Under the pieces are notes generated by a model. It saw only the letters and a program-made list of their open reading frames with translations. It was not told the DNA's origin and searched no databases. Positions 9,539 to 44,143 of a stretch of DNA of 64,000 bases are shown in pieces; the stretch's first letter is position 1; every line of letters starts with the position of its first letter. Made by a program: the position numbers and the translations under genes. This DNA comes from Hevea brasiliensis (taxonomy: Eukaryota; Streptophyta; Magnoliopsida; Malpighiales; Euphorbiaceae): the NCBI RefSeq assembly GCF_030052815.1, contig NC_079503.1, positions 60,802,735-60,866,734 of the forward strand. Direction: 5' to 3'.

Positions 9539-9592
9539 TGTCTTAGGAAGACTAAAATTCTCAAATTAATAAAATAAATCAATTAAGCCTTT

Positions 9593-10191: not shown

Positions 10192-10223
10192 AAATAAATT
10201 TCGTCTTGAAATTTTACCTGGTA

Positions 10224-12080: not shown

Positions 12081-12122
12081 ACAACCTAATCCGTTGTGAG
12101 AAGCATCAGAAGCGTATATTCT

Positions 12123-12611
12123 TTACGGTGTAGGTAAAGTCAGGACTGGAGCCTCTGTCAAACATCTTTTCAATTCATCAAAACTTTGTTGGCATTTGTC
12201 CGTCCATTGAAATTTCACATCCTTTCTAAGCAGCTTGGTCAATGGAGATGCCAACATGGAGAATCCCTTCACAAATCGACGGTAGTATCCATTAACTTGA
12301 CTGCGAATCTCTGTGACATTTCTGGGTGGCTTCCAATTAAGGACAGCTTCAATCTTGCTAGGATCTACCTTAATGCCCTCTTCTGATACTACATGCCCCA
12401 AAAAGGATATCTCATTCAGCCAAAATTCACATTTCGACAATTTGGTATATAGTTGTTTCTCCCTCAAAGTCTGTAGTACAATCCGCAGATGTCTATCATG
12501 CTCTTCTGCAGTCCTCGAATAGACCAATATATCATCGATAAATACCACAACAAACTGGTCGAGGTATGGTCTGAAGATAGTGTTCATCAGATCCATAAAA
12601 GCGTGGAGCAT
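12123..12611 (-). CDS. pol: E2 pol, RT palm/thumb part (162 codons)
   Basis: Continues the reverse transcriptase after a frame break near 12605. It carries FIDD (residues 24-27), the YXDD-equivalent polymerase motif, then [34 protein letters not shown] and [10 protein letters not shown], all typical of Ty3/gypsy RT. It runs into the RT-RNase H connection ([11 protein letters not shown]) and ends at a stop near 12123; the downstream frame resumes at 12080. The breaks on both sides look like one- or two-base indels compared with E9. Confidence 0.92.
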
Positions 12612-13176
12612 TGGTTAACCCGAATGGCATGACTAGGAATTCATAATGGCCATAGCGGGTTCTGAAGGCAGTTTTAGAAATACTTTGCTCTTGTACTTTT
12701 AGCTGATAATAACCTGATCTCAGGTCAATTTTAGAGAACACAGCTGCACCCCTCAACTGATCAAACAAGTCATCAATACGGGGTAATGGATATCTGTTCT
12801 TTATTGTCACCTTATTCAACTGCCGATAGTCAATGCATAGCCGGAGAGTGCCATCCTTCTTCTTTACAAATAATACTGGCGCTCCCCAAGGTGACACACT
12901 AGGGCGAATGAAGCCCTTATCAAGCAACTCTTGCAACTGCACTTTCAATTCTTTTAGTTCCGCTGGTGCTATTCTGTATGGCGTTATGGGGATTGGGTCC
13001 ACACCAGGCATAACATCAATTTCAAACTGCACTTCTCTTTCTGGAGGTAATCCTAGCAATTCATCAGGAAACACATCCGGAAAGTCACATCTGATAGGAA
13101 TGTCCTTGATCTTTGGACTCCCCACTTGGGTGTCTATCACATGTGCCAAGTATGCCTCACACCCTTTTCTAATCAT
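12532..13176 (-). CDS. pol: E2 pol, protease-RT linker and RT fingers/palm (214 codons)
   Basis: Starts at [12 protein letters not shown] in the linker after protease, then FPDVFPDEL and [12 protein letters not shown]. The RT domain begins about residue 65 (ITPYRIAP). It includes [32 protein letters not shown], the first catalytic Asp in KIDLRSGYY (Asp151), and [21 protein letters not shown]. After residue 191 the frame is lost near 12605, and the last ~20 residues are out-of-frame read-through. In the original element this joined gag-pro upstream, with a break near 13176-13240. Confidence 0.93.
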
Positions 13177-13239
13177 TTTTCTAGCCAGTGCAGCTGAAAA
13201 TGATGTTTGAAGGCAATAACTGCCTCTCCCCCTGTATTA

Positions 13240-14845
13240 CTACATCACCATACTGAGGAAGACCAAAAGTGACTGTCTTGATCTCTGATCAATCATAGCA
13301 TGATGCACAGCTAACCAATCCATGCCCAAGATAATGTCATAATCTCTGAAGGGCATTTCAATTAAATCAGACAAAAAAGTGTGTCCTTGGATCACCAAAG
13401 GACAGTCTCTATATAGCCTATTTACCCTGACCTCCTGGCCTAATGGACTAGTTACTAACACATCATAGTCCATTGGTACACACGAAATAGTAGTAGAACA
13501 CATCACACTAGCACTAACATACGAATGTGTGGAGCCAGGATCAAATAACACATGCACATCTTTGTCAAGGATGGAGAAATTACCAGCTACAACATCTGAT
13601 GTTTCAGCCTCTTCCCTTTGACGCATGGTATATACTCTAATCCAGTGCGCCATGGATCTTTGGTGGTTAACGGTGCTCTGACTTCCAGGGGTGTTACCAG
13701 GACCCCTACCTCTGCCTCTGCCTCTAGCAGCTGATTGTGACCCTCTGGGTGCAGAGACTTTAGCTGATCCTTCAGATGTAGTGAAAGACCCAGACCGGCG
13801 TGGACTAATGCAATCCTTAGCGAAATGTCCGCTCCCTCCACAGTTAAAACACGCACCAGTAGCTCTGTAACAAACCCCACCATGAGTTCTACCACAGGTT
13901 TCGCACTGCCGTACTGATAGAGCTCCTCGGGGTGCTGGTTGGGTCTGCTGACCAGACCGAGGTGGTCTTTGGCCAGAAAATCTGCCTCGGCCTCTACGGG
14001 AGCTAGATCCCCCAAACTGTTTCCTCTTCCCAGAACCACTTCCAGATGCTTGTTCAGTAGTCTTTTCAGTTTTCTCTTGTGGACCCTTCTTCACTGCCCC
14101 TTCTGATTCTATCTTTTCTAGTTCTAGGGCCTGTGAGATCAATTTGGCAAATTTCTGATGTCTGAATCCCACAACTTGCATTCTCAGACTCTGTCTTAGC
14201 CCAGCCTCAAACCTCTTGCATCTGTCTCTGGGGGTGGAGACTAAGCTTCCAGCATAGTGGCTTAGTCTTGAAAAATCTCTCTCATATTCTGCTACAGTTC
14301 GGTTCCCTTGTTTCAAACTCAAGAATTCTTGCAACTTCATGTCCACATATGCATCGGGAACCCATTTCTGTCGGAACTCCCTCAAGAAGTCTGACCAGGT
14401 TAACACAGGTGGCTCCACCAGGCTGTGGGGGATGGTCTTCCACCATTCATAGGCATCCCCTTGTAATAAGGAGACAGAATACTCAAACTTCATTTCTTCT
14501 GTACACTGCAGCTTTCTAAAAACCCGTTCCATTCTTTCCAACCACTGTTCTGCTTCCAGTGGATCCACAGTGCCTTTAAACTCGGTGGCCCCAAATTTCA
14601 TCAATTTTTCATCTTGCGAAAGTGAGGTGTGGTTGTCTTTGCAGTCTTGGCATTTGAGATTGGGGTGGCACATTACCCGCCATTTGCTGAAAGAAGGCAG
14701 CCATCTGCTACATAAATTGAGCAGGAAACTGCGGTGCTGGAGCAGGAGCTGGAGTGGCTGACCCACTCACATTCTGCAGTGCTAGGGCTTCCCCTTGAAC
14801 CTCAGCCTCAACAGATTGTTCTTCGGAATGATCTCCTCCTTCCAT
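13240..14845 (-). CDS. gag-pol: E2 gag-protease (one frameshift in the leader)
   Basis: The probable start is ATG at 14845-14843 (MEGGDHSEEQ). That frame stops near 14711. The main frame opens at 14766 and reads 508 codons. Gag core: GATEFKG, EAEQWLERMERVF, GDAYEWW, then the FLREFRQK and QEFLSLKQG block (residues 126-220). Arg/Gly-rich linkers follow, with one CCHC knuckle at Cys306, Cys309, His314, Cys319 (13810-13851). The protease active site DPGST is at Asp409, with IILGMDWLA at 478-486. Gag and protease share one frame, as is common in this group. The frame derails after MIDQRS (near 13285), where E9 reads an intact RLKTVTF. Confidence 0.93.
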
Positions 14846-15014
14846 TCCGTTTTTCACAATTTTCTACTTCCTGAGATCAAACACAAGGAGGTTGACCTCC
14901 GTTAGTGCATATTCATGATGTAAATATGTCATATGCATCAATTAAAGACACTTGAGCAGTTGTACATATCAAAGAAATATTCACATACATAGTCAAAATT
15001 TATTGCAAAACCAG

Positions 15015-15026
15015 GCTCTGATACCA
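15015..15026 (-). other. E2 primer-binding site
   Basis: Minus-strand TGGTATCAGAGC, matching initiator-Met tRNA, 8 bases inside the 5' LTR. Confidence 0.95.
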
Positions 15027-15685
15027 CTAAAACATGTCACACCTTACCGCTCCGTAAGGCATAGCATTCTCCCGTAGAATACTTAATGAACTACCGAACT
15101 TCACCTACCGATAACTCTTTAAGTACCCTACAAGGGATTTTAAAATAATTTTCTTACATTTTGGAAGTGGTGAGCATTTTGGTAAGAATTAAAAACCATT
15201 TATTCAAAGTTTAAATACTAGTAAAAATTTTTGTCCATTCAAATTTTGTCGCAAATTTTATAAAAATTTTAACAGAGTTCCCTCTGTATTTTGAGAAACC
15301 AGTTCTTCAAATACCTGTAAAAACACTTCCAAAACTATTTTACAACTCCCAACCTCCAATAATTCACAATTCAACTCAAGTCAATCCATTTCAAAACAGT
15401 TTCACAATCCAAGTCAAATTTGTCAACTCAGTAGGTTCAATAATTCCATTCACAAAACATAAGGCAGAAAATCCATATGTACAAATATTAAATTTACAGA
15501 AGAAAATCTAAAATAATATTATTATAGTTTATTTACAACTGCTCAATTTACATTGATACTTATGACATTACAGTATTTACATCAAAATAACCATAAGGGT
15601 ATAAAACAATACCCGTACAAAAAGGGATCAAAAAGATCTTGTCAATCCCGCAGCTCACTCTGCTGCTTTCTCCTTGCTTTTATCT

Positions 15686-15736
15686 GCGACAGTAAATTAA
15701 ACTATCGCTGAGTATAAACATACTCAGTGGTGCACA
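15686..15736 (-). other. Two-hairpin module, E2 5' LTR copy
   Basis: Perfect stem CTGAGTAT-AAAC-ATACTCAG (15708-15727) beside GCGACAG...CTATCGC (15686-15708; one G-T wobble). The flank TGGTGCAC is conserved. The stem sequence differs from group A copies in E5 and E9 but pairs equally well. Confidence 0.75.
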
Positions 15737-18136
15737 ATAAAGATTTAAAATGCGATACATACATCATTTATTGATGAAACATAATTTGAATACTTCACAA
15801 TCACATTTTGCAAATATCAAAGCTCATAACAATTCATTTTGTCAAATAATATATTAAACAACAGTTTAGTCAAACAATTACATAAACACAGTGTTGCCAA
15901 AGTCGTACACAACTTAAGCCATGACACAAAATTTCCGATCAATGCCGTGTTGTACACCACGACAAAGCAATCTCAACCCCATTAATCGAAACCAATGAGG
16001 GAGGTGGCTAGCTAGCTAATGAGTACTCATCCGATCTACAACCTCAACTGGCAAGCCAGAGAGGGAGGAAAATAAATGATCTCAACCCCATAAATGGAGG
16101 AGGAATAATAAGTAACTGTCATGCTAAGTGTGAATCAAAAATTCGTTTCAAAAATTTCATTCAAATATTGCATACAAAAATCAATCCATTTCCAAAGTTA
16201 CAATTTGATCACAAGGTGGCAACACAAAAGTTCATAAATTCATAATGCGTAATAAATCAATTTTCCAAGGATAAAATGCTTAAATAGGGTTTATTGTGCA
16301 CAAACCTCAAGCGAGTCGTCCCTTAGCCTCGACTCATTTCCTCGGGTTCCATCCCGATATTCTTTTCAACTGAAACACAAAATTTTACAATGTTTCAGTA
16401 CTAGAACTTAACATAAATCCCAAAATAAATTTTAACTTCACATTTACCTATTTCTAACGTGTTAAATTCGACGTTTACGAAATTTTGTGTTTTGGGTTAC
16501 TATTCACTGTACTATTTAAGTCAAATAATTGACTTTCTAAGGATTAATAGGTATGGAAACTCCAACTTCACCCACATACCACATTTTGTTCATTAAACTT
16601 GTTGGTTTTGGTCACTTTTTCAAAGCATAGGTCATTTTGGCAAAATTGCCAATTTTCGGTTTTGTGCTCCGAAGTTGCACTATTCCATTGGTCGATCTAC
16701 TGTTGGAATTTGACAAAACTTCATTCATAGAAAATGTTCCTTATTGTCTTAAGTGTATTCTCATTTTTGGATCAGCTCAATCGGAGTTTTGTAGCTCAAG
16801 TTATGGCCAAAATAAGTTTACTGTTTACGTGTACTGTTCATACTGAGATTTTGGTGCTGGCAGATTTTTGGTCCAACTTTGGTTAATAATTTGATCAAGT
16901 TAAGTTCATAATTTGGTCTCACTTTCTTCATATGAAATGTTGCACTATGTCTTATGTTTCCATCGGTTCAAGAATCGCCTAAATCCGAGTTTTCTAGAGG
17001 GAGTTATAGCTATCCAAACATTGCTGCTCAACTGAAAATCTGCAGAGTTGCAGTACAGTAATTTAATTTTGCTCAATGATTTTGAAAGGGTTAATGGCCT
17101 AATTTGGGTTGGTGTTCTTCATGAAAGTTTTAGGTCTATATCATATCTAATTGCTGGTAAAATTTCAGGTCAATTTGACCTACCTAGCTCGAGTTATGAC
17201 CAAATGAACAGTTACTGTTCATTTGGTCAGTTTGGTGCAGGGCAGCCTGCTATCAATTCACTTTGGTCAATTGTTTCACCAAGTTTTGGTCAGTTTTTGG
17301 TCATGGTTCCTTAATGAAAATTGTGCTCTTTTATGTCTATTTTCATCTCCAATTAGTGGCATATCAATTGGACTTGTAAAATTTGAGTTTTGGTCCTTCA
17401 AAGTGGGTTTGGTCATGTTGCCAGCAGCATGACCATTGACCTACGAATTTAGCTAAATTTTCCACCATTCCCACACAACTTATTTGGTCATAATTGACCA
17501 TTATTTCATTTCACAATAGGTTAAACATGCCATTTATGTATTTCTCCAATTTTTGGTTCATAAACCCTAGCATTGAAAACCCTAACTCATCATTTTCATG
17601 CCTTTAACTAGTTCTAATGGTTTAAATGTTAATCATTTAACTATGTAAAGTTTCTAAACTCATTCAATTGCATCATATTCAAGCAAACCATACTCCTCCC
17701 AACCAGGCCAAATTTCAGCAATGGTCATTCTCCCATGTTTGTTTCATTTAATCAAGTTCTAAGCTCACTTTCAACCATCACATGTGCATTTGAATGGATA
17801 AATGAAGAGTTTAGCATACTAACCTTTGTGTAGCAATTTTCTTCCTCCTTTCCTTCAAATTTTCCTTCTTTCTTTCTTGCTCAATCCTCTTCTCAAGTTG
17901 CCTAGATAAGCTTTAACTATGGTGGCTAATTTTTCTATGGTGGAATTAGGGATTTGATCAAGCTCAAAATGAGCTTTAATGGATGTTTTGGGTGAGGGAG
18001 AGGGTGAGGGAGAGAGAATCACATTTTTGATGAAGAAGATGACTTTATTATATTTTTTTTTCTTTTCTTTTCTTTTCTTTTATGTCTTAGGAAGACCAAA
18101 ATTCCCAAATTAATAAAATAAATCAATTAAGCCTTT

Positions 18137-18158
18137 ATGACATCATGCATGATGTCAT
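18137..18158. promoter_or_regulatory. 22-bp palindrome, second copy
   Basis: Identical to 9593-9614, in the E2 5' LTR. Confidence 0.5.
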
Positions 18159-18718
18159 CACTTTGACTTTTCCAACCTCTTTCCTTTTCTTTTTTTTTCT
18201 ATTTATTTTTCTATTAGTTCTTTAATTCTATTGTCGATTCCGAAATTTTCTTTTCTCCGATTTTATTTGACAGTTATGTCAGGAGTCAGCTCTCGGGGTC
18301 AATTGACCAAATTGCCCCTCGCCGGTTCATCCCGGTTTGCAAATAATCCAATATTTCTTCCGGCTCCCTGACCTAATTATTTGACTGACTTAACAGTTCT
18401 TTTTCGTGATTTTCTCTTTTCCACTGTGTTCATAAGGGTCCTAAGGACCGCAGCGTCACTTTTTACGGTTCGAAATTTGAGTTTAAAATGACTTCGCGAT
18501 GCGTTCAGGAGGTCACTCATCGCTGTGACTCTCGGCTCGTTTAACCTCTTATGTTCTGTTTTTCTTATTTATAGTTAACTAATTAAACATTACTAATTAT
18601 TTGTGTTTATGGCTTCTCCAATTGTCTTAGGTGTGGCTCTAATCCCAATAATTGTCCGGACTGACACCGGTCACCGGAATAGTGAAATATACCAGGCTAT
18701 GCAAACGGGGGTATTACA

Positions 18719-19168
18719 ATGTGAATTAGTAACTGTAATTTTATTTGTATATTCTGTACTTGATAAATTTATGTACTTAGTTGGCAAATTATGCAAAATA
18801 ATAAAATGTAAGAATTTTGATATATGAGTTAAGTATCTGATCATGATTATTCTAATTGAGATTGAGTATGAAAAATTTTGAGACTGATTCTGAGTTGTGA
18901 ATTGGAGTATATATTGAAATTGTTTTTGGCAGGTTTAGAAGAACTGTTAGTCCAAATTACTGCCAGCACTCTGTTGGATTATCATTGAAATTTTTGAATT
19001 TTCCAAATTAGTCAGATTTTGATAAAAGTAAAAATAGCCTAAACCTCAGATAAGGTTTTTGAACAAGTAAATCTAGAACTATAATGAAATCAGATAAGAT
19101 CAGGTGCTCCAGCACGCCGTGTAGCACGCCTTGCTCGGCTACACTGTAGACGGGTGAGGGGTGTTACA
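18719..19168 (+). repeat. E3 LTR, 3' end
   Basis: Continues 6487 after the E2 insertion (first 5 bases are the duplication). It ends GGTGAGGGGTGTTACA, as E4 does, preceded by a GGTGCTCCAGCAC hairpin shared with E4. No primer-binding site follows; E4 LTR sequence does. So this is a 3' LTR or solo LTR. The 5 bases after it (19169-19173, TTAAG) should be its target duplication. Confidence 0.85.
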
Positions 19169-20021
19169 TTAAGTATGAAAAAGTCAACATTTTGGTTGAC
19201 TAGTATGGTAAATAGTAATCAAAATGATTAGTAAATTAAGATGAAGACCTAGAACCAACTCTAAGCTTAAATGCTTAGAATTGTATGACAAATGTGGACT
19301 ATACATCCTAGTCAAAATTGTTAAAGGGAAATTAAAGCCATAAATTTGAAATCCATGAATTGTTCATGGATTACTTGAAACATGAAAAATAAGTCACCTA
19401 ATTGATGTGAATAGATAGTTAGGGCTTATATGCCCATCACAAATAGAATTCATAAAACATTAGTAACTCAACTTGAAATATAAAATTTGTAATTACATAA
19501 GTAGATTTTTGAATGTATAAATGAGAAAGGAAAAATGTTTTGAATACAATGGTACATGTGAACCATTGTTTTGAATTGTGATCAATATGAATGACATAAT
19601 GAATAAATAAATGAATCATATTAATATATGAATGAGACATTAGCTCTCATTATTGTAGAAAGGAAAAGTACTTTGAGTACAGTGGTATAAAAGGATAATT
19701 GATGTGAATTGTAATCACATAAATGATTAAATGAATGTATAAATTATAATTGAAATTTATCATGAAATAATGAAGTCATAAAACACAATGCATTAATATT
19801 TAATGATAATATGTGCCCTTGTATTGCCTAGACACGTGTATCAGATTGGATAGATTGGCATGCCAATAGGGTATTGTTTTAGCAGTACTGCGAAAGGCTT
19901 TATGCCTATATTCATGGCTTTATGCCCGTATTCCTGGCTTTTATGCCCGTATTCATGGCTTTTATGCCCGATTATGTGATATCATGGCTTTTTAGCCATA
20001 CTGACTGCATACGTTGTTGAC
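19169..20021 (+). repeat. E4 5' LTR, middle piece
   Basis: Matches 36588-37420 of the E4 3' LTR almost base for base, from GAATGAAAAAGTCAAC-like sequence to GCATACGTTGTTGAC, where E5 is inserted. No coding content. Confidence 0.93.
19894..19979 (+). repeat. ~21-bp tandem repeat in E4 5' LTR
   Basis: Four units built on GGCTTTATGCCCGTATTCAT. The 3' LTR copy (37314-37378) has one unit fewer, so the array has slipped since insertion. Confidence 0.8.
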
Positions 20022-20630
20022 TGTAACACCCCAAAGTTCGGTAGTGTGTTCTGCTGCTCCGGTGACTAGTGTTGTCCGGACTGCTAGGATGCCTAGAACC
20101 GTACTTCGATATGAGTGAGGAGACATAAAATAATGAAATACAAGAAAAGAAAGTACAAGAAAAACAAAGGAAAAATGATAGCAAAGAAATGTGACCAAGT
20201 TAAACGAGCCGGGAAACCTAACGATGGGTGACCGCACCGGGAAGTCACGGCGTGGACCGTTGACTAGCCCTGGACTGCGGGAAACCCTGGAAAATATTTT
20301 TAGGACTTAAATAGACCCTTGTTGAAGAATAAATATCATTAGAAAGATCAAAGAAAAATTAAATAATTAGTACAAAGAAAAGTGAGAAATCGAAAAACAG
20401 ACAAAACCCGGTAATACCGAAAAATCGGGAACGTAACCCGAACAGGGGCATTATGGTCATTTGACATCCCGAAGTGTCTTTTGACCTAAATGTCCATTAA
20501 AAATAAATAGTATTACACTTAGAAAATAAAAGGAAAAATTAATTTAGTGGTACCTAAAGTAAATAGCTAAAATCAAGGTTAAATGTGGGATTAAGTGAAA
20601 GTTAGCTTAAAATATGATTTAAATTTAGTT

Positions 20631-20666
20631 AGTGGACCACTAGGGATTTAATTAAACATAAATATG
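20631..20666 (+). promoter_or_regulatory. Possible E5 core promoter
   Basis: Inverted repeat AGTGGACCACT (20631-20641), which resembles TCP-type sites, followed by CATAAATATGGC (20655-20666) as a TATA candidate. The inverted repeat recurs in E1 (about 2862), E9 (about 59613) and E10 (about 54800). Inference from position and conservation only. Confidence 0.3.
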
Positions 20667-23077
20667 GCTGAAGTAAGTCCACTAACCATCTGAAATCCCA
20701 TCTTCCTCAAATCCTCTCAAATGGCCGAATTGAAGAACCCTTGAAAACCTCCATTGACGTTTTCTTTGAGCTTGATTTCCTCTCTCCATTTCAACTCCAT
20801 TCACTTAGGTTCTTTCATGAAAAATGGTCTACACACCACAAGGAAGATATTAATACCAATTTTGGGAAGTTTGGTGAAGGTTTAGCAAGTTACAAATAAA
20901 GGTAAGTTTGCATTTTTGAGAAATCCTTTGTTAAAGTTTTTGTGCATGTTATGGGTATTAGTTTGGTGAAGGAAAATTTTGAGTTTGAAAGGTTATTGTT
21001 ATTTTCATTTTGGACAGCCATGGGTCACGTTTATGATGAGGTATTTGTGCATATAATTGATGGGAAAGAATGTTAATAATGGTGATTTAGTAACTTAGTG
21101 AGTTATTGCATGTTTATATGGTGAATTATGCACTTTGATGGGAATTGGCATATGGTACGGCAATGTGATGTTGATGAATGATTTGTGGAAGCTTGTGGAC
21201 ACTTGAGAAATGGTGTATATTGAAGGAAGAGTGGGCAGAATATTGACCTAGAAGGATTGATGATATGTATGTGAATGAATGTTGTAAAGTGTATGTAAAG
21301 TTTGTAATGTTTAGGTGTGGTTGTAATGGTATTTAGAAATTGTAATTGTGAATGATATTTGGTGTGTTGAGGATGATTGGAATCTGCCCAAAATAATGCT
21401 AATGTAATGTAGAAAATATTTTTGGTAATGTGCCAAAACAGTTTGGTAGGGTATGGAAGTAAACCTTGCAAGGTGAGTATGTGTTTGAAGTTGGGGTGTG
21501 AAATGCATATTGAGGGCAGTGTATATTTTAGCCTATAACCTTGAATGTGTAACCTCAATTGGTATGAGACTAATTTGGGGTGAAACTAGGCACAAAATGT
21601 GCCAACTTTCATTGAGAAACCATGCCAAAATTCTGCTTGCAAGGTGACCTAAAAATTTGACCAATTCGGATTAGGTGCAATTAGGACCTGAAAAATGACC
21701 AATTGGGCAGCAGTGAGTATTTAGGCTATAACTCACTCAAAGCAGGTCCAATTGACCTGAAATTTTAACCATGAATAGTTAAGACCCATACCTACAAGTC
21801 TTATGAAGACACCAAAACCCAGAAATGACCATAAGCAAGTCAAACAACTTGCACAAGTTCGGGTCCAAAAACTGACCGAACCAGAATTGACCAATTTGAC
21901 CTAAAATTGACCTAAAATGGTACCACTTGACCAGCAATAGTGTAATGACCATAACTTGGTCTACTTAACTCGGATTGACCTGAAATTTTGCACCGCGTGC
22001 AATAAAACCTAGATCTACAAGTTTGTAGTTTCGACTGAGACCCGAAAACCAAGGGAACTAGATCGTCTGGTTAGGTCAAACCAGTGTTCCGGAATCCAGC
22101 AATTTGCATTAAAATGCACTAAGCGAGGAAATGACTTTGGTAAAACATACCAAACCTAAAACCCTATCGAGTGTGACATATTAACGACACTAAAACCTAA
22201 TTTACCTAAAACGCATCGAGGGTCGGTATATTAGGTGATTAAGCGAATAATTGAGTTCAGTGCATTATTTACCAAACCCCATCGATAGAGACAGTTTAAT
22301 TTGGTACTGAAACACTTCAAATTGTGTTTCTCAGTTAACAAGGACTCAGCAAAAGGGAAAGAAATACTGAGTCAAGACCAGGAGACAAATATCAGAGGTT
22401 TGTGTACAACAACTGTTTCTTTTGAATTATTTTCAATGGAAATAAATATTGATTATTTGTATATCATTATTTTAAATTGTGGAAATGTGTTTGAGGAATA
22501 TTTATTGATTGAAAAATATTGTGAATAGTTTGAAACTGTGAAAAATGGTTTGAATGACATTGATGGATACTTATTGATTAAAAAGCATTAGAAATGGTTT
22601 GAAACCACAGCTATCATGTATATTGATTGTATTCCTCTCTAGCTTGTCTAGTGGGATGAATTGAATTCCCTCTCTGGCTGAAGTGTTAAGGTGTGTGCCT
22701 GTTGAGGACGAATAGAATGAGTACTCATATTTTTGCTAGCTAGCCATGTTATTCCTCATTAGTCATCGACTTTTGGGATGAATTGAATACCTCATTAGCC
22801 ATCGGCTTTTGGGATGAATTGAATTATGGATCATGATTAAGCTGTGTGTGATTTACTGATGTGTATTGTGAGATTGTGAAGTGGATTTTAAACTCTCATT
22901 GACATATACTGTCTTTTGAATTCAAACCTGATCTGACTTTTGGAAAATCATTGTGATATTGAGAAATTGAGTTTAAATTCTTATTGACCTTTATTGTCTT
23001 AAATTTGACTATGGTTTTAAGTATCCACTATTTACATGATTTATGAATTGTGATTTAAATTGTATTTGGTTAATGTT

Positions 23078-23124
23078 GTGCACCACTGAGACATTGTCTC
23101 AGCGATAGCTTTATTCATTGCCGC
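23078..23124 (+). other. Two-hairpin module, E5 5' LTR copy
   Basis: GTGCACCACT, then CTGAGACA-T-TGTCTCAG (23086-23102), then GCGATAG...TTGCCGC (23102-23124). The last arm reads CCGC where E9 has GTCGC. Confidence 0.75.
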
Positions 23125-23728
23125 AGTAGAGAGACAGAGTGGCAAAGCAGACTAGGCCGCACATACCTCCAATGAGAGATTTTTCTGTATAACGAGTATC
23201 GCTTTTTGCATTTTGTATCAGAATGTATGACATTTGTATGTATATTTTCTTTTTGGTTTTGAGCAGTTGTAAATTCAAATTGTACCTTGAAGTTGTAAAT
23301 TAATTATGAGTTATTTGACTTGTAAAAATTGTATTATATTTCCTTATCTCAGACTTTGAAAAATTTCTATGGAATTGAGTTGATAAATTGTTGTGTTGAG
23401 AAATGTATTGAAGTTGAGATTTGGAAATTTATTGAAGTGCTTTTTACAGATTTTCTGAAGAACTGTTTTATCCAAAATACAGATGGCACTCTGCCAAAAT
23501 TTTTACAGAAATCCCAAATAAATCAAATGAGTTAATTGTTTCACTTCAGTTCACCAAAGTTTTTAATACCTGTAAATAGTGCTCACCACTGTAAAATAAG
23601 TAAGAAAAGTTTTTAAAATCCCTTATAGTGTATTTAATGGGTTATCAGTAGACGGAGTTGGTAATTCATTAGGTATACTATGGGATCATGTTATGCCTTA
23701 CAGAGGGGTAGGGTGTGACATGTTTTGG

Positions 23729-23740
23729 TGGTATCAGAGC
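23729..23740 (+). other. E5 primer-binding site
   Basis: TGGTATCAGAGC, 8 bases after the LTR end; initiator-Met tRNA type. Confidence 0.95.
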
Positions 23741-23910
23741 AAAGTTTTTAAATTCCGTTTTCACCTGTTATTTGAATATTCTTTCTTCATAGTACAACTG
23801 CTCAATATCATTGTTTGATACATACAGTACATTACATTATAAATATGCACTAACAGGAGGAAATCTCCTTGTGTTATTTGTTCAGGAGATCTAAAATCCT
23901 CGCATTGAAT

Positions 23911-25130
23911 ATGGAAGAGGGTGATCGTTCAGTCGATCAATCTATTGAGGCTGAGGTGCAAGGGGATGCCCCAGGCCTACATAATGTTAGTGGTTCACCG
24001 CACCACCGCAGCATCGCAGCTTTCTGCTCGCTCGCTCAAGAGATGGTCGCAATGTTCCAACAAATGGTCGTAATGTGCCTACTCAAGTCCCAATACAGAC
24101 ACCGATGGTACAACCACGCCTCCTACAAGGCAGTATGACAAATTAATGAAATATGGGGCTCCAGAGTTTATGGGGACAGTAGATCCTATATAAGCTGAAC
24201 AATGGTTAGAGAGGATGGAGAGGGTGTTCAAGAAGCTACCTTGTACAGAAGAGCTGAGATTTGAATACTCAGTGTCCTTCCTACAGGGGGATGCTTAGGA
24301 CTGGTGGAAAACCATTCCCACGATCAGTAGAACTGCGATCTTGACTGAATGACTTCCTCGGGAATTGCATGAAATACATCCTCGATGCTTATGTAGACCA
24401 GAAGCTACAAGAATTCTTAAGTCTGAAACAGGGGGGCAGATCAGTGGCTGAGTATGAAAGAGAATTTTCCCGCCTGAGCCATTATGCGGTGAGTCTACTC
24501 TCTACCAAATAGGAGAGATGCAAGAGGTTTGAAACTGGCTTGAAGCCCAGTATTAGAGTACAAGTGCTCAGCTTCAAACACACTAACTTCTCTGAACTTG
24601 TTTCTCAAGCCCTAGAGTTGGAAAGAGTTGAGTTTGAGACTGCTCCAGAGAAAAAGAGATCAGAGAAGACAGAGAAAGAGGGAAAATCTGTAGAACAGAG
24701 TTCCAGTGGTCATACTGGAAAAAGGAAGAACTATGGGGGACATGGCAGAGGTGGCAAGAAATCTGGTAGGGGAAGACATTCAGGACAGAGACCTCCCCTA
24801 TCTGGTCAGCAGAGTACCAGAGGTTCCTATCCTCCCCGCCAGTGTGAAACTTGTGGAAGATATCATGGTGGGATATGCTACAAGGCTATTGGAGCCTGTT
24901 ATAACTGTGGAGGCACCGGACACTTCGCCAAGGACTGCACCAGTAGTCGCAGAGTTGGACCACCTCCTACTACTGCAGAAGGGTCAGTTCAGAGCCCTGT
25001 CACCAGAAGCTCACAACCACCTAGCAGAGGTAGAGGCAGGGGTAGAGGTAACCCAGCAGGCAGCCAATGCACAGTAAAACAATCAGAGCAAGATAGTGCT
25101 CCAGTCAGAGTCTATGCCATGAGACAGAGA
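23911..25130 (+). pseudogene. gag: E5 gag, with stops and frameshifts
   Basis: The ATG at 23911 opens MEEGDRSVDQSIEAEVQG. The frame slips after about 80 codons. The core (AEQWLERMERVFKKL, then GDA) meets a TAG at 24296-24298 where relatives have a sense codon before WW. A second TAG is at about 24508, in STK-ERCKRFETG. From 24540 the frame is open: KPSIRVQV, ALELERVE, a basic Gly/Arg-rich linker, and an intact CCHC knuckle (CYNCGGTGHFAKDC, 24897-24938). It then runs on into protease. Much of the damage lies in the capsid part. Confidence 0.9.
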
Positions 25131-25500
25131 GAAGAGGCAGAGACATCTGATGTTGTGGCTGGTACCTTCTCAACTTTTAACCAGAATGTATTTGTGCTAT
25201 TTGATCCGGGTTCTACCCATTCTTATGTGAGTGCTAGCATCATTGATTTCATTGCTGTTCCATGTACAAAAATGGACTTTGAGGTGCTAGTAACAAGTCC
25301 GCTAGGACAGGAGGTCAGGGTTAATAGGATGTATAGAGATTGTCCTTTGGTGATCCAAGGACACACTTTTCTGTCCGATCTCATTGAAATGCCCTTCAGA
25401 GATTATGATATCATCTTGGGCATGGATTGGTTAGCTAGACATCATGCCATGATTGATCAGAGGTCAAGACAGTCACTTTTGGTCTCCTCAAGATGCTGAT
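25131..25500 (+). pseudogene. pol: E5 protease
   Basis: Shares a frame with the gag C-terminus (24540-25499, 319 codons). The active site is [11 protein letters not shown], with the Asp codon at 25203-25205. It continues through [33 protein letters not shown] and [13 protein letters not shown]. This aspartic protease would cut the Gag-Pol polyprotein. The frame is lost after MIDQRS, at the same spot where E2 breaks. Confidence 0.92.
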
Positions 25501-26443
25501 GTGGTAATACAAGGGGAGAGGCAGTTATTGCCATCAACCATCATTTCGACTGCACTAGCAAAAAAAATGATCAGGAAGGGGTGTGAAGCATACTTGGCAT
25601 ACGTAGTAGACACCCAAGTGGGGAGTCCAGCATTGAAGGACATCCCTACAGTATATGACTTTCCAGATGTGTTTCCTGATGAATTGCCAGGATTACCTCC
25701 GGAAAGAGAAGTGCAGTTTGAAATTAATGTTCTGCCTGGTGTGGATCCAATCTCTATAACGCCATACAGAATGGCACCAACAGAGTTGAAGGAGTTGAAG
25801 ATACAGATTACAAGAATTACTTGAAAAGGGCTTCATCCGCCTCTAGTGTGTCACCTTGGGGAGCACGGTGTTGTTTGTTAAGAAGAAGGATGGTACTCTC
25901 CGCTTATGCATTGACTACAGTGCGGTTGAATAGGGTGACAACAAAGAACAGATATCCATTGCCTCGCATTGATGATCCGCTCGATCGATTGAAGGGTGCG
26001 GCAAGATTCTCCAAAATTGATTTGCGATCCGGTTATCATCGATTGAAGGTGCAAGAGCAGTATCCCAAAAGCGCTTTAACTGGTATGGCCACTATGAGTT
26101 TCTAGTAATGCCATTCGGGTTAACAAATGCTCTAGCTGCTTTTATGGATCTGATGAACACTATCTTTAGACCATATCTTGATCAATTTGTGGTGGTGTTT
26201 ATTGATGACATTTTGATATACTCGAGGAGTGCAGAGGAGCATGATAGACATCTGCGGATTGTACTGCAGACCTTAAGGGAGAAACAGCTGTACGCCAAAT
26301 TGTCGAAATGTGAATTTTGGCTGAAGGAAATCTCCTTTTTGGGACATGTTGTGTCAGCTGAAGGGATCAAGGTAGATTCCAAGAAGGTAGAAGCTATCCT
26401 TAATTGGAAGCCGCTAGGAACATCACGTAAATTTGCGCTTTAG
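25501..26443 (+). pseudogene. pol: E5 reverse transcriptase, several frameshifts
   Basis: Three frames cover it. 25453-25824 has [32 protein letters not shown] and ITPYRMAP. 25821-26105 has [21 protein letters not shown]. 26108-26443 starts MPFGLTNA and has the polymerase motif [29 protein letters not shown] and ILNWKP. Local replacements such as ATCGATT for ATCAGTT (26038, 25982) remove single bases from CAG contexts and account for several of the breaks. Confidence 0.92.
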
Positions 26444-27000
26444 GTTTAGCTGGATATTACCGTCGGTTTGTAAAAGGGTTTTCTATGTTATCTTCTCCAC
26501 TGACTAAGCTGCTTCGAAAAGATGTGAAATTTCAGTGGACTGATAAATGTCAGCAGAGTTTTGATGAGTTGAAGAGGTGTTTAACTGAAGCTCCAGTCCT
26601 CACTTTACCTACTCCGGGTAAAGAATACACAGTTTATAGTGATGCTTCTCACAATGGGTTAGGCTGTAATCGATGCAAGATCGAATGTCATTGCTTATGC
26701 ATCACGCCAATTGAAACCGCATGAGAGGAACTACCCAACACATGACACAGAGTTAGCGCTATTGTTTTTGCTCAAGATCCGAGACACTATTTGTATGGGG
26801 AGAAATGCTACATTTTCACAGATCACAAGAGCTTGAAGTACTTAGGCACCCAGAAGGAATTGAATTTGAGGCAAAGGAGATGGTTGGAACTCATTAAAGA
26901 CTATGATTGCTTAATAGACTATCAGCCGGGGAAAGCAAATGTGGTGGCTGACGCCTTAAGTCGCAAGACTATGGCAAGTCTCAGAGTTTCTCCTTTGTCC
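26444..27000 (+). pseudogene. pol: E5 RT-RNase H connection and RNase H
   Basis: 26485-26724 reads [20 protein letters not shown] and reaches [12 protein letters not shown], the first RNase H acidic residue. A break follows near 26668. A shifted frame from 26791 reads [35 protein letters not shown] and VADALSRK, the remaining acidic residues. The ELE helix between them (26745-26790) is scrambled: GCGCTA for GCAGCTA and CCGAGA for CTGGAGA. Confidence 0.9.
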
Positions 27001-28100
27001 ATGGTATATGAATTGAAAGCACAGCATGCCAGTTTAGAGGTTGATGATGAGGGACAGACAGTAGTTGCATGGCATATACAGCCAGTGTTGATTGATCAGA
27101 TCAGAATGGCTACACAGAGTGATGAAAAATATCGGTCACGAAAGAAGTTCAGCAGGGCAAGAAACTTGAATTCTCTGTGAGAGATGATGGTTTATTGCTA
27201 CATCAGGGCAGAGTGTGCATTCCTAGTGATGTGGAATTGAGACAAACCATTTTGAAGGAAGCACATGAGTCTCCATTTGCTATGCACCCTGGTGGAACTA
27301 AAATGTACAGAGGGCAGAAATAGCATAACTGGTGGATGGTTATGAAAATAGATATAGTGAATTCGTTTCCAAATGCCTAACTTGTCGCCAAGTAAAGCCA
27401 GAACATCAAGTTCCAAATGGTTTATTACATCCTTTGTCGCATGCAGTGGAAATGGGAACGAATAACTATGGATTTTGTTACAGGACTTCCAAGGACACAG
27501 AGTAGTCATGATGCAGTATGGGTTATAGTTGACAGATTGACTAAGTCTGCTCACTTTTTGCCAGTTCGGATGGACTATAGCCTGGAAAGATTGGCCAGAT
27601 TATACATTTATGAGATTGTAAAATTGCATGGAGTGCCAGTATCAATTGTGTCTGACAGAGATCCTAGGTTCACTTCTAGATTCTGGGGTAGTCTTCAGAG
27701 AGCCCTAGGAACTAGATTGAACTTCAAAGACAAAGATTCCACCCACGCATGCATGGCCACCGAGAGGGTTATTCAGATATTGGAGGATATGCTACGGGCT
27801 TGTGTGATTGAATTTGAAGGTAGTTGGGATACACACTTGCCTTTGATTGAGTTTGCTTATAACAACAGCTACCAATCAAGCATAGGAATGCCTCCATATG
27901 AAGCTTTGTATGGCAGAAAGTGTAGAACTCCTTTATGTTGGGATGAAGTAGGTGAAAGGAAGATGATTGGGCGTAAATTGTCCAAAGCAGACAGAGGAAA
28001 AGATCGATTGATCGAGAGATAGACTCAAGGTCGCATCGACCGTCGAAGTCCTATGTTGATCTCAAGAGAAGAGATATTGAGTATGCAAAGTGGGTGATAA
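27001..28100 (+). pseudogene. pol: E5 integrase, scrambled near the catalytic Glu
   Basis: The zinc-binding His codons (CACATGAG and TGCACCCT, 27260-27290) and CLTC (about 27378) are in broken frames. The core is in 27417-28022: [14 protein letters not shown] (first Asp), [24 protein letters not shown] (second Asp). The stretch that should read [15 protein letters not shown] reads [15 protein letters not shown] (27725-27772), keeping only ERV. E9 has the same replacement. After [22 protein letters not shown] the frame decays at repeated TCGA for TCAGA changes (28004-28046). Confidence 0.92.
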
Positions 28101-28508
28101 AGTATTCCTCAAAGTTTCTCCTTGGAAGAGGATTATGAGATTTGGCGTAAAGGGGGAAACCGAGTCCTCGTTTCATCGGACCATATGAAGTTCGAAAGAG
28201 TGGGTCCTCCGCATATCGATTGGCATTACCTCCGAGCTAGCAAGGATACACGTGTCTTCCATGTGTCCATGTTAAGGAGGTACAGATCGCACCCATCTCA
28301 TGTACTATCGCTGAAGAGATTGAAGTAAATCCGGACCTCTCATATGAGGAAGAACCCATAAAAATTCTGGCTTATGAGGTGAAACAAATTGAGGAACAAA
28401 AAGATACACACAGTTAAAGTCTTTGTGGAACCATCATTCGTGCCAGACGCTACTTGGGAACGTGAAGAGGATATGAGGAGACAGCACCACAAATGTTCGA
28501 GAGACTAA
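28101..28508 (+). pseudogene. pol: E5 GPY/F region and chromodomain, frameshifted
   Basis: Fragments of [18 protein letters not shown] and SYEEEPIKILAYEV are present in alternating frames. The terminal chromodomain core (VLWNHHS-like, [11 protein letters not shown]) is recognisable to a stop at 28506-28508. Intact relatives are 10224-10560 (E2) and 52081-52338 (E8). Aromatic and basic positions of the fold survive only in pieces. Confidence 0.85.
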
Positions 28509-28538
28509 TGCTGTAAAATTTCGAGACGAAATTTATTT

Positions 28539-28553
28539 TAAGGGGGAGAGAAT
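28539..28553 (+). other. E5 polypurine tract
   Basis: TAAGGGGGAGAGAAT directly before TGTAACACC of the 3' LTR. Confidence 0.93.
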
Positions 28554-31500
28554 TGTAACACCCCAAAGTTCGGTAGTGTGTTCTGCTGCTCCGGTGACTA
28601 GTGTTGTCCGGACTGCTCGGAGGCCTAGAACCGTACTTCGATATGAGTGAGGAGCCATAAAATAATGAAATACAAGAAAAGAAAGTACAAGAAAAACAAA
28701 GGAAAAATGATAGCAAAGAAATGTGACCAAGTTAAGCAGTAGGAAACCTAACGATGGGTATTTGCAGGAAGTCACGGCGTGGACCGTTGACTAATACAGC
28801 TGCGGAAAACCCTGGAAAATATTTTTAGGACTTAAATAGACCCTTGTTGAAGAATAAATATCATTAGAAAGATCAAAGAAAAATTAAATAATTAGTACAA
28901 AGAAAAGTGAGAAATCGAAAAACAGACAAAACCCTGTCACAGAAAAATCGAACGAATCTAACAGGGCATTATGGTCATTTGACATCCCGAAGTGTCTTTT
29001 GACCTAAATGTCCATTAAAAATAAATAGTATTACACTTAGAAAATAAAAGGAAAAATTAATTTAGTGGTACCTAAAGTAAATAGCTAAAATCAAGGTTAA
29101 ATGTGGGATTAAGTGAAAGTTAGCTTAAAATATGATTTAAATTTAGTTAGTGGACCACTAGGGATTTAATTAAACATAAATATGGCTGAAGTAAGTCCAC
29201 TAACCATCTGAAATCCCATCTTCCTCAAATCCTCTCAAATGGCCGAATTGAAGAACCCTTGAAAACCTCCATTGACGTTTTCTTTGAGCTTGATTTCCTC
29301 TCTCCATTTCAACTCCATTCACTTAGGTTCTTTCATGAAAAATGGTCTACACACCACAAGGAAGATATTAATACCAATTTTGGGAAGTTTGGTCAAGGTT
29401 TAGCAAGTTACAAATAAAGGTAAGTTTGCATTTTTGAGAAATCCTTTGTTAAAGTTTTTGTGCATGTTATGGGTATTAGTTTGGTGAAGGAAAATTTTGA
29501 GTTTGAAAGGTTATTGTTATTTTCATTTTGGACAGCCATGGGTCACGTTTATGATGAGGTATTTGTGCATATAATTGATGGGAAAGAATGTTAATAATGG
29601 TGATTTAGTAACTTAGTGAGTTATTGCATGTTTATATGGTGAATTATGCACTTTGATGGGAATTGGCATATGGTACGGCAATGTGATGTTGATGAATGAT
29701 TTGTGGCAGCTTGTGGACACTTGAGAAATGGTGTATATTGAAGGAAGAGTGGGCAGAATATTGACCTAGAAGGATTGATGATATGTATGTGAATGAATGT
29801 TGTAAAGTGTATGTAAAGTTTGTAATGTTTAGGTGTGGTTGTAATGGTATTTAGAAATTGTAATTGTGAATGATATTTGGTGTGTTGAGGGTGATTGGAA
29901 TCTGCCCAAAATAATGCTAATGTAATGTAGAAAATGTTTTTGGTAATGTGCCAAAACAGTTTGGTAGGGTATGGAAGTAAACCTTGCAAGGTGAGTATGT
30001 GTTTGAAGTTGGGGTGTGAAATGCATATTGAGGGCAGTGTATATTTTAGCCTATAACCTTGCATGTGTAACCTCAATTGGTATGAGACCAATTTGGGGTG
30101 AAACTAGGCACAAAATGTGCCAACTTTCATTGAGAAACCATGCCAAAATTCTGCTTGCAAGGTGACCTAAAAATTTGACCAATTCGGATTAGGTGCAATT
30201 AGGACCTGAAAAATGACCAATTGGGCAGCAGTGAGTATTTAGGCTATAACTCACTCAAAGCAGGTCCAATTGACCTGAAATTTTAACCATGAATAGTTAA
30301 GACCCATACCTACAAGTCTTATGAAGACACCAAAACCCAGAAATGACCATAAGCAAGTCAAACAACTTGCACAAGTTCGGGTCCAAAAACTGGCCGAACC
30401 AGAATTGACCAATTTGACCTAAAATTGACCTAAAATGGTACCACTTGACCAGCAATAGTGTAATGACCATAACTTGGTCTACTTAACTCGGATTGACCTG
30501 AAATTTTGCACCGCGTGCAATAAGACCTAGATCTACAAGTTTTTAGTTTCGACCGAGACCCGAAAACCGAGGAACTAGATCGTCGGTTAGGTCAAACCGG
30601 TGTTCGAATCCGAGAATTTGCATTAAAATGCACTAAGCGAGGAAATGACTTTGGTTTATATTACCAAACCTAAAACCCTATCGAGTGTTACATATTAACG
30701 ACACTAAAACCTAATTTACCTAACACGCCTCGAGGGTCGGTATATTAGGTGTTTAAGCGAATAATTGAGTTCATGCATTATTTACCAAACCCCATCGATA
30801 GAGACGGTTTAATTTGGTAATCAAACACTTCAAATTGTGTTTCTCGATTAACAAGGACTCAAAGAAAAGGGAAAGAAATACTGAGTCAAGACCAGGAGAC
30901 AAATATCAGAGGTTTGTGCACAACAACTGTTTCTTTTGAATTATTTTCAATGGAAATAAATATTGATTATTTGTATATCATTATTTTAAATTGTGGAAAT
31001 GTGTTTGAGAAATATTTATTGATTGAAAAATATTGTGAATAGTTTGAAAGCTGTGAAAAATGGTTTGAATGACATTGATGGATACTTATTGATTAAAAGC
31101 ATTAGAAATGGTTTGAAACCACAACTATCATGTATATTGATTGTATTCCTCTCTAGCTTGTCTAGTGGGATGAATTGAATTCCCTCTCCGTGAAGTGTTG
31201 AGGTGTGTGCCTGTTGAGGACGAATAGAATGAGTACTCATATTTTTGCTAGCTAGCCATGTTATTCCTCATTAGTCATCGACTTTTGGGATGAATTGAAT
31301 ACCTCATTAGCCATCGGCTTTTGGGATGAATTGAATTATGGATCATGATTAAGCTGTGTGTGATTTACTGATGTGTATTGTGAGATTGTGAAATGGATTT
31401 TAAACTCTCATTGACATATACTGTCTTTTGAATTCAAACCTGATCTGACTTTTGGAAAATCATTGTGATATTGAGAAATTGAGTTTAAATTCTTATTGAC

Positions 31501-32232
31501 CTTTATTGTCTTAAATTTGACTATGGTTTTAAGTATCCACTATTTACATGATTTATGAATTGTGATTTAAATTGTATTTGGTTAATGTTGTGCACCACTG
31601 AGACATTGTCTCAAATGATAGCTTTATTCTTTATCGCAGTAGAGACAGACAGGGCAGCAGACTAGGCTGCACATACCTCCAGCGAGAGATTTTTCGGGTA
31701 TAACGAGTATACCGCTTTTTGCATTTTGTACTGTAATGTATGACACTGTATGTATATTTTCTTTTTGGTTTTGAGCAGTTGTAAATTCAAATTGTACCTT
31801 GAAGTTGTAAATTAATTATGAGTTATTTGACTTGTAAAAATTGTATTATATTTCCTTATCTCAGACTTTGAAAAATTTCTATGGAATTGAGTTGATAAAT
31901 TGTTGTGTTGAGAAATGTATTGAAGTTGAGATTTGGAAATTTATTGAAGTGCTTTTTACAGATTTTCTGAAGAACTGTTTTATCCAAAATACAGATGGCA
32001 CTCTGCCAAAATTTTTACAGAAATCCCAAATAAATCAAATGAGTTAATTGTTTCACTTTAGTTCACCAAAGTTTTTAATACCTGTAAATAGTGCTCACCA
32101 CTGTAAAATAAGTAAGAAAAGTTTTTAAAATCCCTTGTAGTGTATTTAATGGGTTATCAGTAGACGAAGTTGGTAATTCATTAGGTATACTACGGGATCA
32201 TGTTATGCCTTACAGAGGGGTAGGGTGTGACA
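28554..32232 (+). repeat. E5 3' LTR (3,679 bp)
   Basis: Partner of 20022-23720. Long identical stretches alternate with corrupted CG-rich spots near 28736, 28757, 28793, 28933 and 28950. There, CCGG- and CG-containing words of the 5' copy are replaced. The same modules and hairpins are present. No gene. Confidence 0.95.
31591..31637 (+). other. Two-hairpin module, E5 3' LTR copy
   Basis: Stem I CTGAGACA-T-TGTCTCA (31598-31613). The GCG of stem II is replaced by AAT, another CG-site lesion relative to the 5' copy. Confidence 0.65.
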
Positions 32233-33442
32233 TTGACGTTCTGCGTCCCATGGTATGACGGCCTGAGGCACCTCTGTGTCTAGTGCCAACGACCCGTTAT
32301 CCAGTTTAATCAGCCTGTCGTATGTTACTTGGGTAGTGTAATTTATTGAAATAAATTAAGACTATCAGTAAGTAAAAATATTAAAAATCAAATAAATGAG
32401 TTAATAAGACTTCAAAAGAATTAGGTAGAATTATGAAATGATCCAAACCACATAAAAATTGTTAAGTAAAATGATAAAAGAGTTGCAAAAATAGGTATAA
32501 CTTAACTAAATATTTTAAATATACCTTCTATTGCCATATGAATATAAACTGAGTATTTTTATTAATTCTGTATATTGTACATTATCACTGTGAATTTAGG
32601 AATTAAACACTTCCAAAGTGGAACAAATTAGAACAAAAGATAATTAATATTAGACACATTGTATTAAATTAAATTGATTCTTAAATATTGAAATTATGCT
32701 TCGTTCTTTCTTTATTTGTATATTTTATTTTCTTGTTATATTATTGCACCACTAAGCAGCGATGCTTAGCGCGATGGATTTGTTTCCTCACGCAGGTACT
32801 TTGACTAAGATTTTTGGAGTCCAGATCTACAGAAGTGTCTAAGGTATTCAAGGTTGTCACCTCCTCAGCAATGCATGTAGATAGGATCCATATAGATCAT
32901 ATTTTGTATTTTGTATAAAATACTAGATATTGTATTATAATATAGATTATGAACATGTAATTAATAGACATGTGATGTAAATTAATAAATTAGCTTTTTC
33001 ATTTGTAATTAATTTATATATCATGTAAATTATGAAATTATGTAAATTAATGAAATTTGAAAATTTTACTTATGTGATTTGAGCATGAATGAGATTGTAT
33101 GGATTTGAAGACATATTTGAAATATATAGATAATGCATGGAAATGAATATGAAATTGAGATATATGAATGAGATGTGAATTATGAGATGGTTATGAAAAT
33201 AATTGATGAGATTTTTATTGTAAAATATTATTGAAATTTTCAAACAGGTGAATAGTAAAACACGTCAAACGATATTAAAATAGGGGAAACTTCATTAGTT
33301 TCTCCATAAAAAAAAATAATCAATATTAAATATAACGAGAACAAAATTTTTAAAGAAATAAAGTAAGGTAAGTTAGGGTGCTCCAGCACCGAATGTAGCA
33401 TGCTTTGCTCTGCTACACTGTAGTCGGGTGAGGGGTGTTACA
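32233..33442 (+). repeat. E4 5' LTR, 3' piece
   Basis: Resumes after E5 (first five bases are the duplication TTGAC). Matches 37418-38620 closely. It ends GTCGGGTGAGGGGTGTTACA-like, directly before the PBS, which proves this is the 5' LTR. Hairpin module at 32745-32793. Confidence 0.93.
32745..32793 (+). other. Two-hairpin module, E4 5' LTR copy
   Basis: GCACCA, CTAAGCA-GCGA-TGCTTAG (32752-32769), then GCGCGA...TCACGC (32769-32793; one arm mismatch compared with the 3' LTR). Confidence 0.75.
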
Positions 33443-44138: not shown

Positions 44139-44143
44139 TTTAG

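Follow-up and report, generated by a model that had tools for sequence, protein, structure and literature searches.

A two-hairpin module with paired stem changes in the long terminal repeats of Hevea brasiliensis chromoviruses, a candidate cis-acting RNA structure

The long terminal repeats (LTRs) in a 64,000-nucleotide stretch of Hevea brasiliensis DNA (contig NC_079503.1, positions 60,802,735 to 60,866,734; the whole stretch analysed is called the window below) carry a short module of two hairpins. The copy near position 23,078 raises the question of whether these hairpins are a selected structure and, if so, in which molecule and at which step they act. The genome holding the window comprises 1.88 Gb in 755 contigs, and nested LTR retrotransposons fill the window. 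Pairing in the module was maintained while its letters changed, which supports a selected structure. In the best explanation, to which we give an even chance, a plant lineage of Ty3/gypsy chromoviruses uses the module as a cis-acting RNA structure, which most likely lies at the start of the R region of the LTR and acts in copying of the element. RNA, rather than DNA, would be the acting form.

The module opened with the unpaired 5' tag TGCACCA, continued with two directly adjoining hairpins (stems I and II) and closed with a YAG. TGCACCACTRAG, which spans the tag plus the beginning of stem I, was conserved. When one LTR of each family was aligned over its last 1.1-1.2 kb, where LTRs align poorly (mean column identity 59%, invariant columns 13.6%), the best 13-column window was the module start, with 11/13 columns invariant and at most 8 elsewhere, which speaks for the module. 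Eleven copies were found, all at the sites given for them in the original prediction, and were assigned to four LTR families, for which the labels T1 (n=4), T2 (n=2), T3 (n=3) and T4 (n=2) were coined in this analysis. The copies are given below with their fold z-scores.

23079-23126, forward strand: T1 module, the copy in question; TGCACCA, stem I CTGAGACA/TGTCTCAG, stem II CGATAG/TTGCCG, CAG; z -1.3.
31591-31639, forward strand: T1 module in the second LTR of the same element; decayed junction; z -0.9.
1697-1743, reverse strand: T1 module with one base missing at the stem I/II junction; z -1.0.
57179-57227, reverse strand: T1 module with stems I and II complete; z -4.1.
15684-15734, reverse strand: T2 module with complete stems CTGAGTAT/ATACTCAG and CGATAG/CTGTCG; z -4.9.
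7137-7187, reverse strand: T2 module, one G.T pair in stem I; z -3.7.
6266-6316, forward strand: T3 module, CTAAGCA/TGCTCAG with one A.C mismatch, CGCGA/TCGCG; z -3.1.
32745-32795, forward strand: T3 module, CTAAGCA/TGCTTAG, one C.A mismatch in stem II; z -2.0.
37924-37974, forward strand: T3 module with stems I and II complete; z -4.1.
43462-43511, forward strand: T4 module, CTAAGCA/TGCTTAG, one base inserted in stem II; z -2.1.
51376-51442, forward strand: T4 module, partly duplicated internally; the complete unit starts at 51394 (CGCGT/ACGCG); z -3.2 for 51394-51442.

Six of these copies thus had z-scores of -3.1 to -4.9, and in the remaining five z was -0.9 to -2.1. A scan tolerating 3 mismatches returned the 11 copies, each with 0 mismatches to TGCACCACTRAG, and one extra partial duplicate at 51394 with 1 mismatch, the only exception to a rule of one tag per LTR in the window. 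When the flanks of one copy per family were used in BLAST searches, a module was present at 11/11 downstream-flank matches, and its reported presence in every LTR containing the region was upheld; two short matches to the upstream flank only (2174-2287 and 5803-5862) ended before the module site. The distance from the module to the LTR end, put at 600-700 bases in the original prediction, was 642-705 bases in the seven LTR slices measured.

The stems were as first described, with some corrections. Stem I of T1 was predicted to have 6-7 bp and a 3-base loop, since closing the innermost A-T as well would shrink the loop to 1 base. One G at the stem I/stem II junction was claimed by both stems, stem II contained a T.G pair in 3/4 T1 copies and 2/2 T2 copies, and the junctions had decayed in two T1 copies, those at 31591 and at 1743 (reverse strand). 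The T4 copy at 51376-51442, in the 3' LTR, contained an 18-base tandem duplication of the stem I region; its 5' LTR partner at 43462 was without it. A YAG followed stem II in 11/11 copies, as placed by the parse. More short hairpins were seen by eye 3' of the module in T1 and T2 (31591-31730 and 15590-15734), in T1 as GCAGC..GCTGC at about +60 and GGTATA..TATACC at about +105; none was noted in the T3 and T4 copies, which were not searched for them.

Covariation was scored on an alignment of the 11 window copies in which loops were padded with N (alignment A3), one inserted base was omitted from the T1 copy at 31591 and from the T4 copy at 43462, and the base missing from the T1 copy at 1743 was entered as N. 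Paired cells made up 90.8% of the total, a percentage that exceeded 500/500 shuffles. The covariation score was 0.473, compared with 0.179 +- 0.033 in shuffled alignments (0/500 reached it) and a maximum of 0.135 with slid partners; 7/14 pairs had changed on both sides, against at most 3 with slid partners. The two arms also changed together between families in Fisher tests (T1-T2, 0.011; T1-T3, 0.0003; T3-T4, 0.011), for which one copy per family was chosen among the better-preserved. A structure covariance model (R1), of the kind proposed in the original prediction, was trained on four T1/T2 rows and compared with a sequence-only model of the same rows (R2). The held-out T3/T4 modules were found by R1 in 5/5 cases (E 9e-7 to 2e-4) and by R2 in 0/5 at E up to 10. 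This test depends less on relatedness than the covariation scores do.

Genome-wide, TGCACCACTRAG occurred 85,770 times, and the reversed-pattern control 28 times. The tag was then followed by CTYAG able to close stem I in 75,064/85,770 cases (four pair-3 patterns), and pair 3 of stem I was Watson-Crick in 70,627/75,064 copies, in two types: 41,240 G-C and 29,387 A-T, with 2,114 G.T and 2,323 A.C (reversed controls, 0 each). One hundred loci with exact TGCACCACTRAG were sampled from the first 8.5 Mb of one contig; being tag-selected, they are informative about stem II and the free 3' arm but say nothing about the tag, and their location in chromovirus LTRs was assumed. They fell into 20 clusters by upstream flank. 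Anchor-based counts (CTRAG, CTNAG) omitted the 10/100 loci without CTNAG. In the 90 parsed loci pair I-3 was G-C in 50, A-T in 36, G.T in 3 and A.C in 1; pair I-6 was Watson-Crick in 79/90, compared with 38 expected from the columns, and pair I-7 in 40/90, compared with 30.7. With one locus per cluster (19 parsed), pair I-3 was A-T in 12, G-C in 6 and G.T in 1.

The loci were also aligned with a further model, R3. The resulting alignment (A5) held 98/100 loci and 7 antisense matches of the same stems; antisense rows were kept for covariation scoring (86 distinct rows) and dropped for the count of mismatch cells. In the 86 rows 93.2% of cells were paired, and the score was 0.332, compared with 0.137 +- 0.008 (0/500 shuffles) and a slid maximum of 0.050. 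At E up to 0.01, R1 found 98 of the 100 loci and R2 found 61. Pairing persisted through variation in loop length, in the inner letters of the stems and in most of stem II.

Matched changes could also be mechanical. If reverse transcription switched template at a quasi-palindrome and so copied one arm to the other, no selection on structure would be needed. The module is indeed an inverted repeat in an element copied via single-stranded DNA, and double changes occur between close LTRs (L164/L165, 95% flank identity; L072/L118, 90%). Such copying leaves unexplained the invariant tag, the second hairpin and the same place in 20 flank clusters, which, being tag-selected, count here for the stems only; it would also erase the common T.G pairs of stem II. 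We give this explanation a slim chance. Of the LTRs L164 and L165, one has G-C and the other A-T at stem-I pair 3, a matched change; since both changed sites are CHG contexts, two methyl-C transitions could also account for it.

Fold stability was scanned from -390 to +330 around the module in all 100 loci, because the representatives in an earlier scan had been picked for low module energy. The cluster-weighted z was -2.03 at the module and -0.52 to +0.64 at 24 other offsets, and z fell below -2 in 66/100 loci at the module and in at most 24/100 at offsets beyond 60. The module was the sole fold-stability peak within about 400 bases. The covariation score, the paired cells, the held-out model, the genome pair counts and this peak all agree with the claim that structure was kept by paired changes in diverged LTRs. 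As to strand, 84 distinct sense rows held 90 G.T and 20 A.C cells, and the T.G pair of stem II stood in 40/75 distinct rows. These fixed T.G pairs suggest that the sense strand is favoured; strand evidence overall was mixed. The excess of G.T over A.C was at first taken as strand evidence, for which the genome counts at I-3 gave no backing.

The place of the module in the LTR was examined through base composition and signals. In the 100 loci GC was 10-17% at -40..-1 and 35-59% per 10 bases over 0..+140, and the step fell at the first base of the module in 20/20 clusters. This step suggests that transcription starts at the 5' edge of the module, which would then be the first feature of R. TGTA occurred 7.75 times per 180 bases at +120..+300 and 1.08 times at -300..-120, with an excess in 100/100 loci, and in five window LTRs from all four families (the T3 slice being partial) the 150-base window with the highest TGTA density in the LTR started at +107 to +198. 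For the copy in question the corresponding feature is:

23179-23379, forward strand: stretch rich in TGTA (10 occurrences between +100 and +300 from the module start), a putative 3'-end-processing region of the LTR transcript.

The density of AATAAA was 0.0 in bins 0 to +200 of the 100 loci, and in seven window LTRs the first AATAAA after the module came at +201 to +438 (T2 +201, T3 +238, T4 +250/+267, T1 none before +438). Plant poly(A) sites are marked by UGUA-rich far-upstream and AAUAAA-like near-upstream signals. From the TGTA-rich stretch and the AATAAA positions the RNA end therefore most likely lies about 200-300 bases after the module, and full-length RNA should contain the module at its 3' end at least.

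This constant position upstream of the TGTA-rich region (five window LTRs and 100/100 loci) would also suit a role in 3'-end formation, in which the hairpins of the 3' LTR alone are active, placing or strengthening cleavage at that region or shielding the 5' copy from early polyadenylation. The hairpins are without AATAAA, some 50-150 bases separate them from the TGTA stretch downstream, and we know of no such hairpin requirement for plant poly(A) signals, which counts further against a role that we judge distinctly improbable.

The elements themselves were classified by their proteins. In the element at 10178-15035 (reverse strand) Pfam gave an open reading frame order of gag and protease, reverse transcriptase, RNase H and integrase, with domains for gag, aspartic protease, reverse transcriptase, RNase H, integrase, SH3 and chromodomain. 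On this domain set it was classed as a Ty3/gypsy chromovirus, as are the window elements. The chromodomain at the integrase C-terminus (PF00385, E 7e-5) scored 23.1 bits, slightly below the Pfam cut-off of 25.1, and was also backed by one weak PDB match (E 0.014), both in this one window element. Passages of PMC6317226 report chromodomains in 94% of chromoviruses and in no other group. Readable LTR ends started with TGTAAYACCC and finished with GGTGTNACA, and GGTATCAGAGC stood directly after the LTR end in T1, T2 and T4. We take sequence of this type after an LTR to be a Met-tRNA primer-binding site (PBS). The clade is probably Tekay/Del, a name presumed because such LTR ends (TGTAACACC..), together with long repeats and a PBS resembling that for Met-tRNA, fit the pattern of that clade. 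The LTRs delimited were as follows.

20022-23720, forward strand: 5' LTR of the T1 element that holds the copy in question.
28554-32232, forward strand: 3' LTR of the same T1 element.
15035-18718, reverse strand: T2 LTR, pair partner 6488-10176.
41015-44141, forward strand: T4 LTR, pair partner 48923-52080.

One T3 LTR was apparently split (19167-20021 and 32233-33442) by the T1 element at 20022-32232, a nested insertion; the matching T3 LTR was unbroken at 36586-38620.

Sequences beyond the genome were also scanned. Viral contigs gave 61 matches to the module pattern, none then followed by the primer-site string, which were taken as chance, and 0 matches to the LTR-end pattern, the polypurine tract pattern and the integrase protein. 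Plasmid records gave three distant protein matches (24-26% identity) and phage records 0 protein matches. A scan of genome contigs for the LTR end plus PBS returned 9 records, of which one (L070) was unrelated and eight (L062-L069) were judged plant-like contaminants of bacterial assemblies; these assemblies (Geminicoccus, Solirubrobacter, Modestobacter, Blastococcus and Streptomyces titles) look plant-contaminated because plant-type chromovirus LTRs lie inside them. Two of the eight matched window proteins at about 55% in reverse transcriptase and integrase, and the others have DNA in common with those two or among themselves. L062, L065 and L069 contained a hairpin TGAGCAA/TTGCTCA, with ACTGAG before and CAGG after, 322-366 bases before the LTR end; in L063 only 208 bases were available before that end. 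This hairpin had no evident stem II, gave z -1.1 in L065 and L069 (the two folded) and was missed by R1. It is a possible relative only, a weaker single hairpin in 3/8 contaminant loci. The TGTA layout of L065 fitted that of the window LTRs. A different hairpin, GAGTACATTACGGGACTGTACTC, stood 163-211 bases before the LTR end in 6/8 contaminant loci (L062, L064-L068); L069 carried a one-base variant of it, and none was reported in the 208 bases of L063.

A splice signal tuned by the hairpins was considered as well, with the branch-like CACTRAG, the U-rich tract and the YAG serving as a 3' splice site, or with CAG/GTA as a donor. Besides the YAG that closes all 11 window modules, the matching YAG was in the top 2-4% by pyrimidine content in the contaminant LTRs L065 and L069, and passages of PMC3735527 describe BARE1 RNA as spliced with C(A)AG/GTA and CAG/G signals. 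In five window LTRs, on the other side, it ranked by pyrimidine content no higher than the top 7-14% of YAGs, donor matches close to the module reached at best 4/9 positions in T1a and 3/9 in T2, and AGGTA occurred in 6/11 copies. We attach almost no probability to this explanation. TATA and splice-site readings were scored and found weak, and a coding reading of the stems was dropped by eye, a short frame running through the module in T1 and T2, not in T3.

Several results weigh against an RNA structure selected at the start of R. The unpaired tag is the most conserved part of the module, and structure alone leaves its conservation unexplained. The original prediction had looked to covariation as its check; the score and the paired cells bore it out, whereas doubly changed pairs and further pair types stayed within the shuffle range both in the window (119/500 and 276/500) and in the 86 genome rows (9/14 pairs doubly changed, matched by 47/500 shuffles; further pair types, 72/500). 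Kinship alone can raise the score above all shuffles, a known caveat of the covariation tool, and the counts come from related copies of one genome. One shifted Fisher control also reached 0.016 (T2-T4, shift 5), and with one locus per cluster (19) the excess of pairing was small (I-6, 14 compared with 10.4 expected; I-7, 9 compared with 7.3).

On the same side, 43 of the 90 G.T cells belong to a single stem II pair, and the two mismatch types at pair I-3 were near equal genome-wide (G.T 2,114, A.C 2,323), a balance that transitions accumulating in both arms after insertion would produce. Antisense z was -1.95 and sense z -2.03, sense being lower in 44/100 loci. The GC step at 0..+11 was partly imposed because the 100 loci were chosen by tag. 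No consistent TATA box was found 25-40 bases upstream, TATAWA occurring 0.36 times per cluster in the last 50 bases, and TATAAA and TATATA were absent within 300 bases upstream in T1, T2 and T4. The contaminant LTR L069 was without a TGTA excess, and R1 had no full-length match in the eight plant-like contaminant contigs.

Because the most conserved letters are unpaired, a DNA-level dyad site is the main rival. The module would then be an inverted-repeat protein site or a core-promoter mark at the boundary of AT-rich and GC-rich sequence, with TGCACCACTRAG recognised and the hairpins either extruded or a mere dyad. The invariant part is indeed a linear sequence that includes TGCACCA, the sharp composition step resembles a promoter edge, and the I-3 mismatches and equally good antisense folding suit DNA; promoter-side palindromic repeats are described for Sirevirus LTRs in passages of PMC2829016. 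A dyad protein site, however, would keep its letters and spacing, and in the module stem letters and loop length vary while pairing holds. The T.G pair present in 40/75 distinct rows and the arrangement as two adjoining hairpins rather than a single dyad also speak against a DNA site, which we consider unlikely.

For an RNA structure acting in copying, the full-length transcript would carry the module near its 5' end and a second time some 150-300 bases upstream of the poly(A) site. Strand transfer requires R matched at both RNA ends, and retroviral R bears hairpins there. The module might help minus-strand strong-stop DNA to locate the 3' R (first strand transfer), or it might mark full-length RNA for Gag and packaging; a function in one of these two steps is the one we favour. 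If the proposed R, with which base composition and TGTA layout agree, is right, the module can be compared with the TAR and poly(A) hairpins of HIV, which are likewise two adjacent hairpins near the R start upstream of the poly(A) site. There AAUAAA lies inside the second hairpin, whereas the module is without AATAAA; host and element family differ. To our knowledge the module, unlike the HIV R hairpins, has no transactivator.

Among plant elements, conserved palindromes in retrotransposon LTRs are described for Sireviruses in passages of PMC2829016 and PMC10760457. Those of Sireviruses, which are Ty1/copia elements, are multiple motifs upstream of the TATA box, most with a fixed CGG-CCG core; the module, in contrast, is present in one copy per LTR, has varying stems and belongs to Ty3/gypsy chromoviruses, and no CGG-CCG core was seen by eye in the stems of 60 loci. 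Maize Ty3 elements were generally without an obvious peak of microRNA-like structure, according to passages of PMC10760457. Passages of PMC5454406 describe a structured 5' domain of Ty1 RNA (TIPIRT), like the module a cis-acting RNA near the 5' end, for translation, packaging and reverse transcription, and passages of PMC12786077 a 125-bp R redundancy in Tto1, with R needed for first strand transfer. Ty1 and Tto1 are Ty1/copia elements and not chromoviruses, and those passages describe no such module in them. Benachenhou et al. 2013, working with LTR profile models, linked stem-loops to the residual conservation seen in long R regions, and plant Metaviridae were not modelled because their LTR length was too variable (passages of PMC3601003). 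The available passages of a machine-learning paper on plant LTRs report ends, the TATA box and binding sites.

No counterpart had been known to the original prediction, and none came to light in Rfam or among the matches listed in open-licence papers. Rfam gave 0 matches at gathering scores in the window and, by E-value, one chance-level match in each of two 301-base stretches. Among the matches listed in open-licence full-text papers, including PMC11656987 and PMC5838962, there was no description of the module (subscription journals fall mostly outside this scope), nor was there one in the titles or abstract starts of the papers, among the matches listed, that print the exact tag in either direction.

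At its fullest, the proposal is that selection maintains a two-hairpin RNA element not described before, which this genome holds in tens of thousands of copies. The element would start the chromovirus R, would be required for first strand transfer or packaging, and would be a plant counterpart, of independent origin, of the hairpins at the start of retroviral RNA. We advance this proposal tentatively, with more doubt than belief. The RNA signals by which plant LTR retrotransposons are packaged and copied have been little studied, though these elements fill large genomes; a 2025 review names, in its available passages, one R-region deletion study in plants (PMC12786077). The structure model recovers copies that a sequence-only model misses, and the module predicts where transcripts would start and end, which makes the function of the R region in these elements testable.
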